Position numbers and translations under genes: made by a program
DNA from: Nitrospirales bacterium
GTDB taxonomy: Bacteria > Nitrospirota > Nitrospiria > Nitrospirales > UBA8639
NCBI GenBank assembly: GCA_031315865.1
Contig: JALDRJ010000002.1
Span: forward strand, 3,446,001-3,510,000
Length of the DNA stretch: 64,000 bases
Reading direction: 5' to 3'
Part shown: in pieces, positions 21,721 to 31,715 of the stretch
How positions within the stretch are numbered: the stretch's first letter is position 1
How the letters are laid out: each line of letters starts with the position of its first letter
The notes under the pieces: model-generated
What the model was told of the DNA's origin: nothing
Databases searched by the model: none
Seen by the model: only the letters and a program-made list of their open reading frames with translations

Positions 21721-22839
21721 CTAGCCAGCTTTACGACCGGAAGTCGCGCGTGCCTTTGGACGTCCGTCGCATTCAACCGAAGGATCGTCTTGGACTGCAG
21801 TCCCGGCCTTGACCACTCCACCAAAATCCGCACCGACACCAAATCCGGGAGTGATCGTGAACCCTTGAAAGACATTATCATAATTGAACCAAAGGCCAAT
21901 CCCGAGCGAAGGGCCTTTCTTAAGAGAAGCTGCTCCAACATAGGCTAAAGCGAGATCATCCACTCCAAACTCAACCCCCCAAGAGTCCCCACCAATTTTA
22001 TTGTTCTGACAAACCCAGAACCCCACATCAATTGCCCCTCCCGCAGCAAGGCCAGGGCCAACGCCATAGTCGCCGGTCGCATAGGCATAAGCGGGCCGCT
22101 CCCCTTTGAGATCGATCGCTGCTCCAGCGCCGCCTGAGGTACCGACAAATAGAAACTTGCCACCCACCGACGCTCCTACGGTGAGCGTCCGTAACAAATA
22201 ACCATCCGGCATTTGCGTCTTCCCGACTTCCGACGCGTTCACGACTTTTGCCACAGAAGTCTTGTCTTCAGCATTCAACCTATTCCGGACTTTTTGGTTA
22301 TTCGCTACCCGAGTTGCAAACGCAACTTTTGAGGCGACAAACCCACCTATTTTCTTCAGTTTTTGCGCTGCAATCAGATGACGCTTAGCATCTGCATTCG
22401 GGACACATTTTCCTTTGAGGAAATCTTCGACCAAGCCCTTATCGCAGGATGGGATTCGTTCTGACAGTTTGCAGGGTTTTTGGTAACGCTTGCCACATTT
22501 GAACTTGTTGCCTAGATCGGCTTGAGTTGTGCACCGATTGGACGGGAAGTGCTCCACCAGCCCCTTATCGCACGACGGGATGCGTTCCCAAATTTTGCAC
22601 GGCTTTTGGTTACGCTTGCCACATTTGAATTTTTGGCCAGGAGCAACTTTGGCGACACACCGATTGATCTTAAAATTCTCTACCAATCCCTTGTTACAAG
22701 ACGGTATCCGTTCCCAAATTTTGCAAGGCCGTTGATTTGTCCCACCGCAATTTCCCGCATGGGCTGAAGGAGAAGACACGATTCCCATACCAAGAAAGAC
22801 TGCTGTGAAAAGTAAAATTTTAGAAAGACAAATTTTCAT
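21721..22839 (-). CDS. Secreted protein with three Cys-rich tandem repeats and a Gly-rich beta domain
   Basis: 372 aa; AAGGAG lies 7 nt before the ATG at 22839. A signal peptide ends near SAHA. Residues about 31-145 hold three copies of a roughly 40-residue unit, C-G-x4-(Q/R)-x-P-C-K-(I/L)-x-E-R-I-P-S-C-(N/D)-K-G-L-V-E-x-F-x5-C, each with four cysteines likely to form two disulfides. A helical linker is followed (from about 210) by a Gly/Ala-rich beta region (GASVGGKFLFVG; GVGPGLAAGGAIDVGFW). I know no family with this combination. It sits between two mobile-element scars, which suggests acquisition, but its frame is intact and it has a good ribosome binding site. Confidence 0.75.
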   Translation of the reverse strand: MKICLSKILLFTAVFLGMGIVSSPSAHAGNCGGTNQRPCKIWERIPSCNKGLVENFKINRCVAKVAPGQKFKCGKRNQKPCKIWERIPSCDKGLVEHFPSNRCTTQADLGNKFKCGKRYQKPCKLSERIPSCDKGLVEDFLKGKCVPNADAKRHLIAAQKLKKIGGFVASKVAFATRVANNQKVRNRLNAEDKTSVAKVVNASEVGKTQMPDGYLLRTLTVGASVGGKFLFVGTSGGAGAAIDLKGERPAYAYATGDYGVGPGLAAGGAIDVGFWVCQNNKIGGDSWGVEFGVDDLALAYVGAASLKKGPSLGIGLWFNYDNVFQGFTITPGFGVGADFGGVVKAGTAVQDDPSVECDGRPKARATSGRKAG

Positions 22840-23697: not shown

Positions 23698-24062
23698 AGA
23701 GTACCACGCCCTTACGGACGTGGTACTCTCAAAATTCAAGCTGCGCTTGTCCGGTGCCCTGCTTGCCTTGATCATGAATATACCGCTGGATGATGGCCTC
23801 ATTAATGCCTACCGTTGACACGAAAAATCCTTAGCTCCAGACCACCCCCATCCCAATAGACTTCCTGCAACCTCATCTGAAGATAAACTGCCACGCCCTT
23901 CCCCAGGATTTTTCGTCGATACCGCATCACCCAGACAATATGATATGGGGTCTTGTAGACCCTGTGGGCAGCCTTCTGAAGTTTCATCACCGCCCACTAT
24001 ACCGCAGGACACCGGATCTGGCTCTTCTCCCCGCCCTTCCGGACGGGGAGTTTTCGCTGAAT
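23698..24062 (-). mobile_element. Internally deleted IS200/IS605-like element (MITE-like)
   Basis: A short minus-strand unit keeps both ends of an IS200-type element. The right-end hairpin is at 23698-23729 (11-bp stem AGAGTACCACG) and the left-end hairpin at 24027-24050 (7-bp stem CTCCCCG); the loops CCCTTACGGA and CCCTTCCGGA differ by one base. Between them is a shrunken Y1-transposase gene. The left end directly abuts the ligA copy at 24063 and the right end abuts the IS3 remnant. With the ends kept and the gene deleted, it could be moved only by a transposase supplied in trans. Outer boundaries are approximate. Confidence 0.75.
23729..23990 (-). pseudogene. Truncated IS200-type TnpA (Y1 transposase)
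   Basis: Starts at ATG 23990 with KTPYHIVWVMRYRRKIL, the conserved N-terminus of IS200 TnpA. After about 45 residues the central part, including the HUH and catalytic Tyr region, is missing. In another frame the C-terminus resumes as FFVSTVGINEAIIQRYIHDQ and ends at the TGA at 23729-23731. Deletion plus frameshift make it non-functional. Confidence 0.85.
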
Positions 24063-24716
24063 TAATGCCCCATAGTACTTCGCTAACACCTGCGCGATAT
24101 GCGACCCGACATTTCGAATTCCCAATCCATAAATAAACCGAGCCAACGGGGCTTGCTTGCTCTGTTCAATCTCTTCCAACAACTGTGTAGCCGATTTATC
24201 CGCGAATCCTTCGAGATCCAACAGCTGCGCTTTCGTTAATGTATAAAAATCCGCCAGGTCCTTCACGAGCCCTCGATCCACGAATTGCGCAATAGTCTTT
24301 CTGCCAAGACCCTCGATATTCAACGCCCCCTTTGAAGCATAAAGCTCAAGTGCGCCTTTAAGTTGCGCAAGACAAACCGTGTGTCCTGTGCAGTAGAGCA
24401 CCGGCCCCTCCTGCATGGTTCGTGAATGACAGACCGGGCATTCAGTGGGCGGTGTAAACGGTTGTGAACGGACTTCCCCAGGCACTTCGATGCGTTCTAC
24501 GACATCGGGAATTACATCCCCTGCCCGTTCAACTTTGACTGTATCGCCGGGACGAACATCCTTCCTGGCCACTTCGTCTACATTATGCAATGAAGCACGG
24601 CTGACCGTGACGCCACCAATCTCTACAGGATTGAGCAGGGCGATGGGAGTCAGCGCTCCGGTTCGCCCGACCGACACCATAATATGGTGCACTTTCGTGA
24701 TTTCTTTGCGAGGAGG
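24063..24716 (-). pseudogene. Internal fragment of ligA (duplicate of 26930-27583)
   Basis: 24063-24704 is identical, base for base, to 26930-27571 in the intact ligA. It encodes residues about 325-541: the OB-fold part, the zinc finger (CPVCHSRTM...) and the helix-hairpin-helix region, with neither the adenylation domain nor BRCT. Over the next 12 bases the two copies still match at 10 positions, and both differences are synonymous in the ligase frame (PPRKE). The fragment ends exactly where the IS200-like element begins. It cannot make a working ligase. Confidence 0.95.
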
Positions 24717-24850
24717 TTGGGATTGTACTGTTTATACACGATGTGGGAGGATGAGGTCATTTTTTTCAACACAGTTTGCCCCACCAGGGAGGGTTATGGA
24801 AGGCGTGCTGTATTCATTTCTTTATTCATATTCTAAGGAGCTACAAGCAA

Positions 24851-26341
24851 ATGGTTCGTTCACTAACACTATCCCGCACATCCCTTTGCATCCCTGCGTT
24901 ACTGGGGTTAACCACTTTGCCATTGAGCGCAATGGCTGCGGCTCCCAAAGAGTGCCCACCCGGACTCGAAGCAGATGCACCAATCATCGCTCAGTCCATT
25001 GAACAGGCCGACATTAACAGCGGCGTGTTCAGCTTCAAAGAGGTCAACGAACACGGTAAGGCGCTATTCATTGCCAGGTTCAATCGCTGCGACGGGTCAG
25101 GTCGTCCAGAGACCACCGGCGGCGGCGACAAGCGGAACATACCGATCTTCTCAGAAGATGGCGAGACGATTTCTGAGGGACAAGTCAAGAAGTTGCGCAC
25201 CTCGGCCCCGGATTCTGATGCCTGCGCTGGCTGCCATAATCAACCGGAAATCGGTGGTGCGGGTGACTTTGTCGCCAACGTGCTTGTGCTAGCACAGACA
25301 CTGGATCCGGTCACGCTGTCGGTAAGCCCCTCCAAGAGCAACAGCCGCAACACACTGGGCATGCACGGTTCAGGTGGCATTGAAATGCTAGCTCGCGAAA
25401 TGACTACGGACCTGCAAGCCCATGCCGCCGGTCTTCCTGATGGCACACACACGATCAGTTCCAAAGGTGTCAACTTCCAAATCAAGGTAAACGGCGGCGC
25501 TGTAGTAGCCACCGACGGTGGCGTCGATACGGACTTGATCATCAAGCCGTTCCACCAGGTGGGTAAAGTGACTTCATTGCGTGAATTCTCCATTAACGCT
25601 ATGAACCATCACCACGGTATGCAGGCAGAAGAACGTTTCGACCTGAATCCAGACAAGAACTATAATCCCGACTATGACGCCGACGGCACGGAGCGCGAGC
25701 TAACCCTCGGTGACCTCACAACGATCTCCATCTGGCAGGCCCAGCTGGATGCGCCGCAGCAAGTTATGCCTAAGAAAAATACTGATCGCAACCTGGCCGA
25801 ACAAGGGGAAAAGGTGTTCGATGACATCGGTTGTAACTCCTGCCACAAACCGAAAATGGTGCTACACACCCGCACCTTTGTCGAGCCCAACCCGTTTAAC
25901 CCACCAGGCACCTGCAACAATCAAGCACCTAACTTCAAGGACGCGTGTCCTCCGATTTCTTTCGACCTCACGAAAAAGGCTGGGTTTAAAGAAGACGCCA
26001 AAGGCACCATCATCGTGCGCGCCTACACCGACCTGAAGCGCCACAACCTGTGTGACGCGGACATCAATTTCTTCTGCAACGAACTGCTGGCACAGGGGCG
26101 TGAAGATGCCATCGATGGCACTCCTGGCACATATTTTTTCCTTACCCGTAAGCTGTGGGACGTTGGAAACACTGCGCCTTACGGTCACCGCGGTGACGTC
26201 AGCACTATCACCGAAGCCATTCTGTTCCATGGCGGGGAAGGACGAGCCTCTCGTGACGCCTTCATAGCAAGGTCTATTGAGGATCAGAAGTCCTTGGTAA
26301 TGTTCCTGAAAACTCTTCAGGTTGTACCGGATGCAATGTGA
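24851..26341 (+). CDS. Di-haem oxidoreductase (DHOR, DUF1111-type), periplasmic
   Basis: 496 aa. I chose the ATG at 24851 because AAGGAG lies 10 nt upstream and a signal peptide (ending near SAMAAA) follows. Two c-type haem motifs are present: CAGCH at 125-129 and CNSCH at 328-332. The C-terminal TRKLWDVGNTAPYGHRGD and TITEAILFHGGEG blocks are typical of the DHOR/thiol-oxidoreductase-like family related to MauG and di-haem peroxidases. It probably transfers electrons or oxidises an unknown periplasmic substrate. It lies alone between a ligA fragment and ligA, opposite in direction to both, with its own terminator, and looks like inserted cargo. Confidence 0.88.
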   Translation: MVRSLTLSRTSLCIPALLGLTTLPLSAMAAAPKECPPGLEADAPIIAQSIEQADINSGVFSFKEVNEHGKALFIARFNRCDGSGRPETTGGGDKRNIPIFSEDGETISEGQVKKLRTSAPDSDACAGCHNQPEIGGAGDFVANVLVLAQTLDPVTLSVSPSKSNSRNTLGMHGSGGIEMLAREMTTDLQAHAAGLPDGTHTISSKGVNFQIKVNGGAVVATDGGVDTDLIIKPFHQVGKVTSLREFSINAMNHHHGMQAEERFDLNPDKNYNPDYDADGTERELTLGDLTTISIWQAQLDAPQQVMPKKNTDRNLAEQGEKVFDDIGCNSCHKPKMVLHTRTFVEPNPFNPPGTCNNQAPNFKDACPPISFDLTKKAGFKEDAKGTIIVRAYTDLKRHNLCDADINFFCNELLAQGREDAIDGTPGTYFFLTRKLWDVGNTAPYGHRGDVSTITEAILFHGGEGRASRDAFIARSIEDQKSLVMFLKTLQVVPDAM

Positions 26342-26518: not shown

Positions 26519-28582
<2,064 letters not shown>

Positions 28583-28761: not shown

Positions 28762-30654
28762 TCAGTCACGAATGAACTGAGAGGCATAGCTTCGAATCTC
28801 GTGTCCATTCAGCACATGAAACTGTCGAAGGCGGTTCACGGTTTGTCCAGAGAACCGGCTGAGTGGGATGGGAATCAACGAACGTCCATACCGTCGCGCA
28901 ATTTGCCGCCATCGCGCTTTGGGAGGAATAGGAGAGATGAGGGCGACATGGGGCTCCAATGAATGCCGGCAGGCTCCGGCCAGAAGCCGTTCTTCGAGCG
29001 ACTTGGCGTAATCCAGGTGCGGGTCGGTCCAGATATCGGGGATCGGTCGTGGAGGAAAGAGAAACATCGTCCCCCCGTACTGGGACTGTCCAATTCCCGG
29101 CCCCACCATATTTTCCAGGAAAGGCGTCGCGTAAAAACAGAGCGTGGACTCCTCTTCATGTTCGGCATACCAAGTAGCCTGCCATGAAAACCTCTCACGA
29201 TCTGCCGGCACTTCAAAGAGAAAGACGATGACTTCCAGCGTCCCCCTCGATGGCGGAATTTCTTTGACATAAATTTCAAGGTTACGCGATTTCGAGGTGA
29301 TGGAATGCCGAAGCGTTTCCCGTAAATCTATCCCATCCCGCATGGAGGTCGTGAATTTTTCGGCTTTGGCCAATTCCGCGCCGATGAGAGATTTAGCTTG
29401 CTGACGGACATGAGACGCAAAGGATTCGATCTTGTCATCCTCAGGCGGCCAGGAACATTGACCGTACGGATTCCACTGGAAGACCCAATGGCGTTTTTGT
29501 CGTTTGGGGGGAGCCGGTCGTAATGCGAGAGACCGCCATTGCAGAGGCTGCCCGGCTAACCGGTTTTTAGCCTTGGCGACACGCCCATCAGGCAATTGCA
29601 CTTCGCCCAAGCCCACCATGATGGGAGGATCGTCCCACGGAAGCCTGTCCTTTTCTTGAAACGCATAGTGTTTCGCCGTCTCCAGGAGTCTCAAAGCGAA
29701 CTCATCCCCCGCCAATTGCTTGGCCGCCAGAACAAGCGTGTACAAATCCGGTGTCAGGCGGCGATCCAACAGAGAGAGATTCCTGACGTACTGCAAGTAC
29801 ATTTGCAGGAGTTGCGGCGTGACCCAATTGGACTCTTGGACACGTTCGGCAAGCCAGCTATGCTGCCAGCGCGTCCGCGTTTCCATTAACAGTTCCTTGA
29901 TCGCATCAATTGACACATGTCTGTCATCCCGGGCTTCGCGCCGACGGGTTTCGTACAACTGAGTCACGAACGGTAACTCGCCAAGGACGAAATACAGGGC
30001 TTCTGTCTTGACGGAGAATACTTCCGGCTGTGTGGTTAAGGCTTCGTGGGGTTCGTACGAAGTACGATTCTGATAAGCCATCCTGATCCACGGCCAATCT
30101 TCCAGGGGACAGAGACCAAGGATCGATTCAGAGTAGAGTTCTAATTCATGCAGACGAAACGCCATCCAAGCAATGCGATACGCTCGTTGAGTGTCAGGTA
30201 AAGGCGCCGGGAGCGATGGCAACATGGCCGCGGCATATGCGGCCAAGGACACCTGCTTGAGCGCGTAGGGATCGGGCATAGGATAGGCGTGCGGCTCAAA
30301 CAGCTTGACTTCACGGTCGATATACGCACGAGGAATGCCTTCGCTCATCGCGACACGGATACCCATAATGACTGCTTGACACGGATCAATCGGCACGAAG
30401 GAATAACTGGGTCGGTCATCCTGTCCGTCTTCCTGGATTAAGACAAGCTGGATATGCGGGAGGCGGGTAATCGCCGTCTCAACCGCCTCTTCTATGGAAG
30501 GTGGCAGCGGCACCGCCAGACAATCGATAGGATGCTCAAGCAGGTAGTCTCGAACCTCCTGTGCCACATCGCCACTTCCATTCCGAATGGGCAGAAGTGT
30601 CACACGGGATGAGAGTTCGAAAACGACTTTTGTGTGACCTTTGTGGTGTGTCAT
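28762..30654 (-). CDS. Unknown 631-aa protein paired with an AAA+ ATPase
   Basis: I prefer the ATG at 30654; a TTG at 30702 would add 16 residues. There is no signal peptide and no membrane helix. Residues about 20-130 read like an alpha/beta domain (HPIDCLAVPLPPSIEEAV; FVPIDPCQAVIMGIRVA; EGIPRAYIDRE), which is faintly like TraB/ChaN-type domains. The middle (about 200-400) is helical. The C-terminal half mixes beta strands (LEIYVKEIPPSRGTLEVIVF) with basic helices (RWRQIARRYGRSLIPIPLSR). No von Willebrand MIDAS motif, nuclease or protease motif is visible. It follows the AAA+ gene closely on the same strand, implying a joint function, perhaps as client or partner of the ATPase. Confidence 0.65.
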   Translation of the reverse strand: MTHHKGHTKVVFELSSRVTLLPIRNGSGDVAQEVRDYLLEHPIDCLAVPLPPSIEEAVETAITRLPHIQLVLIQEDGQDDRPSYSFVPIDPCQAVIMGIRVAMSEGIPRAYIDREVKLFEPHAYPMPDPYALKQVSLAAYAAAMLPSLPAPLPDTQRAYRIAWMAFRLHELELYSESILGLCPLEDWPWIRMAYQNRTSYEPHEALTTQPEVFSVKTEALYFVLGELPFVTQLYETRRREARDDRHVSIDAIKELLMETRTRWQHSWLAERVQESNWVTPQLLQMYLQYVRNLSLLDRRLTPDLYTLVLAAKQLAGDEFALRLLETAKHYAFQEKDRLPWDDPPIMVGLGEVQLPDGRVAKAKNRLAGQPLQWRSLALRPAPPKRQKRHWVFQWNPYGQCSWPPEDDKIESFASHVRQQAKSLIGAELAKAEKFTTSMRDGIDLRETLRHSITSKSRNLEIYVKEIPPSRGTLEVIVFLFEVPADRERFSWQATWYAEHEEESTLCFYATPFLENMVGPGIGQSQYGGTMFLFPPRPIPDIWTDPHLDYAKSLEERLLAGACRHSLEPHVALISPIPPKARWRQIARRYGRSLIPIPLSRFSGQTVNRLRQFHVLNGHEIRSYASQFIRD

Positions 30655-30758
30655 ATCGCAAAGAGAGTCAGTTGCCTCTCGTCGCTCGAATCTCGCAGCC
30701 AAAGAGTTTCGGATTCGTGCCTCAACGAGAGATGGATAACGGACGACGAAAGGTCGCC

Positions 30759-31715
30759 CTATGAGTCCGGATGAAGCGGATTTCCTTCATCAAAAAAGAA
30801 ATCCCCTAGCCCCCGTGGGGTGGATTCTCCACCAATCGCCCGACTTCGACGTCGCGCCAGCGTATCCAAATCGGCAGCGTCTTGCCCCAGCACCTTAATG
30901 AGCGCTTCCTGCCATGCCGCATCTTGAGCCAAAGGGTGCGTTGGATCCTGAGCGACGCGTTTCAATGCGTATTGTACGATGTGGATACCATCCCGGACAG
31001 AAAACTCCAGGTCGAGTTCATGGGCTTTTTGAAGAAAATCGACCGTTAGATTCAAGATTTCCGCAGGCGCAAAGGGTAAATGGTATTGGAGAATAGCTAG
31101 TTCATGTTCACGGGCGGGAAATTCCACCTTGAGCGTCGGTTGTAGCCGGGACAGTATATAATCGGGAATTTCATAGGTAGAGGCATCTTCATTCATCGTA
31201 ATACAGCACCGAAAATCATCATGGGCCCTAATCTGGATACCGGCAATGATCGACTCAACGGTTCGTCGATAGTCAAGTAGGGAAGCCAGGGAAGCCCAAC
31301 TTTTCTCATTCATGCGATTGCCTTCGTCCAACAGACAGATACTTCCGGTCAGCATGGCCGTGACGAGAGGAGAAGCCTGGTAGGAAATCGTCCCCCCTTC
31401 GGAAATCACTGGTGATACCAACAGGTCTTCCGGTCTCGTGTCCGCCGTGCATTGAAAGATGTAGAGGGCTTGCTTCTTTTCTTTTGCCGCCGACATGGCC
31501 AATGTGGTTTTTCCCACTCCAGGCTGTCCGGTAATGCGTGGAGACAAGGGCAGATCTCTGGGATCGACCACCAGCCAGCAGGCCAGCAGTTGCTGCAACA
31601 GTTCGCGGTCTCCGATCCACTCTTGATTCAGCGGCACCGATTGCGCTAACCGGAGCGTCACTTGATCAACAACATGCGTACGAGATGCTCGTGAAGAATC
31701 TGTCATCTGCGACAC
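30759..31715 (-). CDS. MoxR/midasin-like AAA+ ATPase
   Basis: 318 aa, opening with GTG at 31715 (an ATG three codons later is possible). Walker A is GQPGVGKTT (63-71), Walker B is ICLLDEG (126-132), sensor 1 is CCITMNED, and an arginine occurs in [11 protein letters not shown]. The order and the NRMNEKSW segment after Walker B fit the AAA_5 / MoxR-like clade, whose members usually pair with a von Willebrand factor A protein to insert metals or remodel complexes. Here the adjacent downstream gene encodes an unrelated-looking 631-aa protein instead. The two genes are 56-104 bp apart and form a likely operon. Confidence 0.85.

Follow-up and report, generated by a model that had tools for sequence, protein, structure and literature searches.

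MoxR ATPases are widespread, yet little is known of their clients and coupling partners. They are chaperones in which an ATPase ring remodels a client bound by a partner protein (PMC9976466, PMC7159879), and VWA proteins go with most of the subfamilies that have been named (PMC11432383). The window analyzed here, a whole stretch of 64,000 nucleotides from a Nitrospirales bacterium, contains an ATPase gene of this type next to a gene encoding a large protein of another kind. What does this ATPase act with, and what might the two proteins do together? The features of the locus are the following.

30759-31715, minus strand: MoxR/midasin/CbbQ-like AAA+ ATPase, assigned from its AAA_5 match, its profile relatives and its motifs
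28762-30654, minus strand: large partner protein of 630 aa, without any family model above threshold, conserved beside the ATPase
30058-30633, minus strand: predicted TraB/TIKI/EreA-ChaN-like domain of the partner (residues ~8-199), assigned from structure matches, the DUF5682 profile and a residue table
29671-29922, minus strand: predicted helical bundle of the partner (residues ~245-328), with a weak likeness to AAA+ lids
28765-29652, minus strand: C-terminal part of the partner (residues 335-630), delineated by a separate model and by conserved residues
26519-28552, minus strand: presumed ligA, intact, the next gene after the partner

The ATPase and its pairing with a large protein

The ATPase comprises 318 residues if translated from the GTG at 31715 and 315 residues from the ATG at 31706, the latter start being no less plausible. 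It matches AAA_5 (PF07728) above the cut-off (67 bits, E=2e-18), as it does the AAA_3 model (31.5 bits); the GvpN model scores far under its cut-off. The best matches of its profile among solved structures are midasin, CbbQ and NorQ. The Walker A motif GxPGxGKT, the Walker B motif LDE, the sensor-1 residue N175 and R190 are kept in 78/78 relatives; the signature is intact and contains the Walker A, Walker B and sensor 1 elements that define the MoxR-type class. An earlier note on this DNA had called the protein a MoxR/midasin-like AAA+ ATPase, and the AAA_5 score and the profile matches bear this out.

The partner ORF lies 104 bp downstream on the same strand. The earlier note had located it correctly but counted 631 residues, whereas the protein has 630. 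Searches of the partner against Pfam, NCBIfam and PADLOC report no family match above threshold, and a direct search against the sequences of solved structures gave nothing usable. Scans for a DxSxS MIDAS motif and for a membrane-like stretch return neither, in agreement with the soluble, MIDAS-less protein that had been proposed. Structure prediction of the full protein from a 53-sequence alignment yields a mean pLDDT of 84.8 and a pTM of 0.75. Across several phyla, over 100 loci keep the two frames open, a conservation far beyond chance. In one close pair of genomes, the partner has a dN/dS of about 0.08 and the ATPase one of about 0.04, values that indicate strong purifying selection on both genes. 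Promoter and terminator scans report nothing above chance.

The earlier note had proposed a two-gene module and a survey of its co-occurrence across genomes. In the Nitrospirales, the ATPase gene is upstream of the partner gene, with the same strand and order, at 30/30 loci. A wider genome scan covering several phyla finds the two genes adjoining at 62/80 loci, and 16 of the other 18 genomes encode an orthologous ATPase elsewhere; in single-contig Planctomycete genomes, such unlinked genes are hundreds of kilobases to megabases apart. At several loci, genes unrelated to one another are found between the ATPase and the partner; they are taken as insertions. Among 294 Planctomycetota genomes, 45 possess the partner and 47 the ATPase, all 45 being shared, and the two ATPase-only genomes (G323 and G469) are devoid of the partner on a second look too. 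The corresponding counts among 295 Nitrospirota genomes are 47 and 46. The single mismatch, the single-contig genome G177, carries a partner pseudogene with an internal deletion (L192 2298-2915), in which only residues ~20-150 and ~466-492 are left, and the ATPase is missing from between this remnant and the LysM gene. The ATPase and the partner are a near-obligate pair, co-occurring even when unlinked, and the module proposed earlier, with both ORFs intact, is upheld by these counts. The pairwise distances of the two proteins correlate over 78 loci with r=0.95, a value uncorrected for the species history that both share. At the loci examined, the pair has no third neighbour that is conserved from phylum to phylum, and the recurrent neighbours at divergent loci are not common to different phyla.

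The partner protein, domain by domain

The model of the N-terminal domain matches the solved structures 8b6h_DQ (Z 10.9), ChaN (2g5g, Z 8.0), HopBA1 (5t09, Z 7.6) and PMT (2ebf, C2 domain, Z 6.2). ChaN, HopBA1 and the PMT C2 domain are named members of the TIKI superfamily (PMC6254334). In a viral structure library, a TraB family protein from a marseillevirus ranks second, with a Foldseek probability of 1.00. In its predicted structure, the domain has the core fold of the TIKI/TraB/EreA-ChaN superfamily, and the faint TraB/ChaN likeness suspected earlier is confirmed by this model and by profile comparison.

The latter connects the domain to DUF5682 (PF18934), which we take to be YehM of E. 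coli. The profile of the main branch of partners, which includes the window protein, matches DUF5682 over the N-terminal domain with E=3.6e-4 and a score of 42.7, as compared with 26.3 at most for 150 column shuffles and 25.6 for the reversed profile. With a profile of 19 divergent relatives, hhalign reports E=3e-9 (96% probability, 207 columns). The motifs HGR, VAVELP and CGLAHW of the divergent relatives align with RHH, EGP and GAxH of DUF5682, their E49 and H186 falling on its E and H. Together, these alignments show the two N-terminal domains to be homologous. Every tested member scores below the Pfam cut-off of DUF5682 (26 bits), the best reaching 16.3 bits, and a DUF5682 search of the window's genome returns no match. 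The motifs RHH, EGP and GAxH are themselves of the TraB/TIKI type, and a link between DUF5682 and TraB/TIKI was not found in the literature searched.

Active TIKI enzymes possess a 2His/2Glu active site (PMC6254334). About 20 divergent relatives of the partner retain H25, E49 and H186, together with an RE motif. The window protein has N25, P49 and D186 at these positions, all three signature residues being replaced; in the main branch as a whole, position 49 is P, A or G and position 186 is mostly D. The tree requires at least two changes at position 49 and four at position 186. Because the H/E/H signature is common to DUF5682, the E and H appear to have been lost in the main branch and not gained elsewhere. 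The N-terminal domain most likely descends from a TraB/TIKI-type hydrolase, and in the window branch it is probably a binding module. It resembles the TIKI/TraB/EreA-ChaN superfamily in its predicted fold, but differs from it by the absence of the active-site E and H and by its location within a 630-residue protein that has an AAA+ partner.

The genes encoding DUF5682 invite a further comparison. At loci of Planctomycetota (L180-L184), an ATPase gene is followed by the DUF5682 gene and then, mostly, by a gene whose product contains DxSxS. As in the pair, an AAA+ gene comes directly before the gene of a large protein, and the TraB/TIKI-like N-terminal domains of the two large proteins are homologous. 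However, most of the DUF5682 loci read have the DxSxS gene next door, whereas no such gene is conserved beside the pair, and their ATPases are only remotely like the window type and belong to a clearly different branch. Furthermore, DUF5682 keeps the E and H that the window branch does not, and its C-terminal part fails to align with that of the partner.

The helical bundle in the middle of the partner returns dynein and MCM lids as weak matches (Z ~5.5-6.2). The ensuing C-terminal part holds most of the near-invariant residues of the protein, including polar ones such as D440, E498, E502-S503-T504 and H613, and reaches a mean pLDDT of 88 when modelled alone. Its predicted fold is made up of antiparallel strands, then of helices and strands in alternation, with an α/β domain of RNase H-like topology from residue ~475. 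Its weak matches are mostly RNase H-like, namely actin-like kinases, RuvX, integrase and PIWI (Z of 4.1 at most, Foldseek E of at least 0.016). No close structural relative was found, in keeping with the novel look attributed to this half in the earlier note.

Two kinships were considered for the C-terminal part and rejected. A VWA-like domain is disfavoured by the lack of any VWA chain in the list of fold matches and by a strand order that resembles RNase H and not VWA, which is a weak argument. Short Argonautes (SPARTA) head the Foldseek list, but their TM-scores are near 0.1-0.2 and their E values at least 0.016, and the resemblance is therefore ascribed to shared topology only.

A putative remodelling machine

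The two proteins probably make up a machine dedicated to protein remodelling, which is not represented by any database model. The reading that we favour, with some confidence, is a two-component AAA+ chaperone in which the 630-residue protein is a dedicated adaptor with a TraB/TIKI-derived N-terminal domain. The MoxR/CbbQ-like ATPase would be the ATP-driven motor, presumably a hexameric ring as in its family, and the 630-residue protein would contact it as an adaptor replacing the usual VWA protein. This adaptor would hold a client via its TraB/TIKI-like N-terminal domain and its C-terminal α/β domain, and its remodelling by the ring would result in a client complex being assembled, matured or taken apart.

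Alternatively, the pair might be an ATP-dependent hydrolase, the ATPase feeding substrates to an enzymatic partner whose active site would be located either in the TraB/TIKI-like domain, in the divergent relatives, or at an unrecognised site in the C-terminal half. The H25, E49, H186 and RE residues of the divergent members are what a TIKI/TraB site predicts, and the dense near-invariant polar residues of the C-terminal half would suit an enzyme as well. We nevertheless consider a hydrolase unlikely: the window branch has replaced the residues at positions 49 and 186, and the window protein that at position 25, while in the C-terminal model the catalytic acids of RNase H-type enzymes are not recognised at the expected strands.

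The adaptor would occupy the place of a VWA protein. No conserved VWA gene is found beside the pair at the loci examined, across phyla, and the earlier proposal of a MoxR-like ATPase with an undescribed partner in place of a VWA/MIDAS protein stands. The pair is similar to NorQ/NorD and CbbQ/CbbO in its ATPase class, its two components and its expected function as an ATP-driven remodeller (PMC9976466), but its partner has neither a MIDAS motif nor a VWA-like match. A conventional MoxR-VWA chaperone, with its VWA protein encoded elsewhere and the 630-residue protein as a client or an accessory subunit, seems to us quite improbable. Such a chaperone could draw on the PF00092 protein (about 1013-1044 residues, with a DMSGST motif where read) that occurs in exactly one copy in all five genomes of a single genus (g2) that were found to bear the pair, and on a similar VWA protein beside mdh in the window's genome. 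However, the PF00092 protein is unlinked to the pair at the loci examined and, in G081, the genome inspected for this, no AAA gene adjoins it, and the VWA_CoxE and VWA_2 models find nothing in the five genomes, VWA_CoxE returning nothing in 11 genomes examined. This unlinked protein may nevertheless be the real co-chaperone.

As a separate observation, the large VWA protein located next to malate dehydrogenase (L190 1663-4704, 1013 residues; L191 38-2542) carries a DMSGST motif, is conserved in Nitrospirales relatives and has no NCBIfam match.

If the adaptor reading is true, the pair would provide an alternative means by which a MoxR ring is coupled to its client, without a linked VWA gene. 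We advance more tentatively, as a possibility that may well not hold, that the pair represents an undescribed MoxR-type AAA+ class present in several phyla, in which the VWA co-chaperone gave way to an adaptor of TraB/TIKI origin bearing a new C-terminal domain, an ancestral AAA+-hydrolase pair having turned into an AAA+-pseudoenzyme chaperone. The partner can be followed from a form that bears the signature and looks like a hydrolase to one that is apparently a pseudoenzyme. Tying DUF5682 to the TraB/TIKI superfamily leads to predictions for both. The pair is open to experiment, since Nitrospira carries it and so do cultured Planctomycetes, Singulisphaera acidiphila among them.

Descent, the question of defence and the window neighbourhood

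Nearly all Nitrospirota with the partner belong to the window's order, Nitrospirales. Bins with the labels Nitrospinota, Gemmatimonadota, Latescibacterota and Omnitrophota contain the partner too, and a Neochlamydia plasmid carries a remote copy, which likewise comes straight after an ATPase gene. In a tree, 103 partners group closely by phylum, with the labelled Planctomycetota on one side of a branch, as suits a mostly vertical descent; the pair is present in single copy. Presence is patchy within genera, and the module is therefore regarded as dispensable in some lineages.

The earlier note had left a choice between a remodelling and a defence-like system; remodelling would fit best, and the defence-like part finds no support. 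Predicted conflict systems do make use of MoxR ATPases (PMC7159879), and an anti-phage or conflict role like that of the MoxR-vWA ternary systems would be consistent with the patchy presence, the plasmid copy and another copy on a viral contig, near an integrase and a portal-like gene. Like these ternary systems (Kaur et al. 2020, PMC7159879), also found in Planctomycetes, the pair combines a MoxR-like ATPase with an additional protein, but neither a vWA gene nor a third component is conserved beside it, and no variable effector genes were seen there. PADLOC reports no match for the partner and generic weak matches only for the ATPase. Moreover, 50,697 phage records contain no match to the pair and 72,556 plasmids a single one, the mobile cases seen amounting to the one plasmid and the one viral contig, and the strong purifying selection also speaks against such a role. 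Because descent is mostly vertical, in single copy and with a synteny frozen in Nitrospirales, and because phages and plasmids are nearly devoid of the pair, we hold a defence role to be very unlikely and retain the adaptor-based chaperone.

On the viral contig (L178 1-8254), a divergent pair directly precedes a tyrosine-type integrase gene, and the portal-like gene lies at a greater distance. A tRNA was looked for without success, and the pair may be either cargo of the phage or flanking host DNA.

The frozen synteny of the Nitrospirales involves ligA and trp genes. A ligA-sized gene follows the pair at 31 loci, all of them in Nitrospirales. In the window, a LysM-type gene in divergent orientation and the trp genes lie ahead of the ATPase gene. 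The names ligA, LysM-type and trp are those that we presume for the window neighbours from their sequences. The pair had been described as intact beside a decayed region; it is intact, but the decay is not immediately adjacent, the intact ligA intervening. The damage is found farther on: beyond a cytochrome-like gene (24776-26341), a truncated second ligA copy is present at 23997-24692, and a 654-bp ligA stretch is duplicated with 99.7% identity (24063-24716 and 26930-27583), which may reflect either a recent event or an artefact of the assembly. Further along, the window contains two tandem 126-bp units that are 73% identical (22419-22670).
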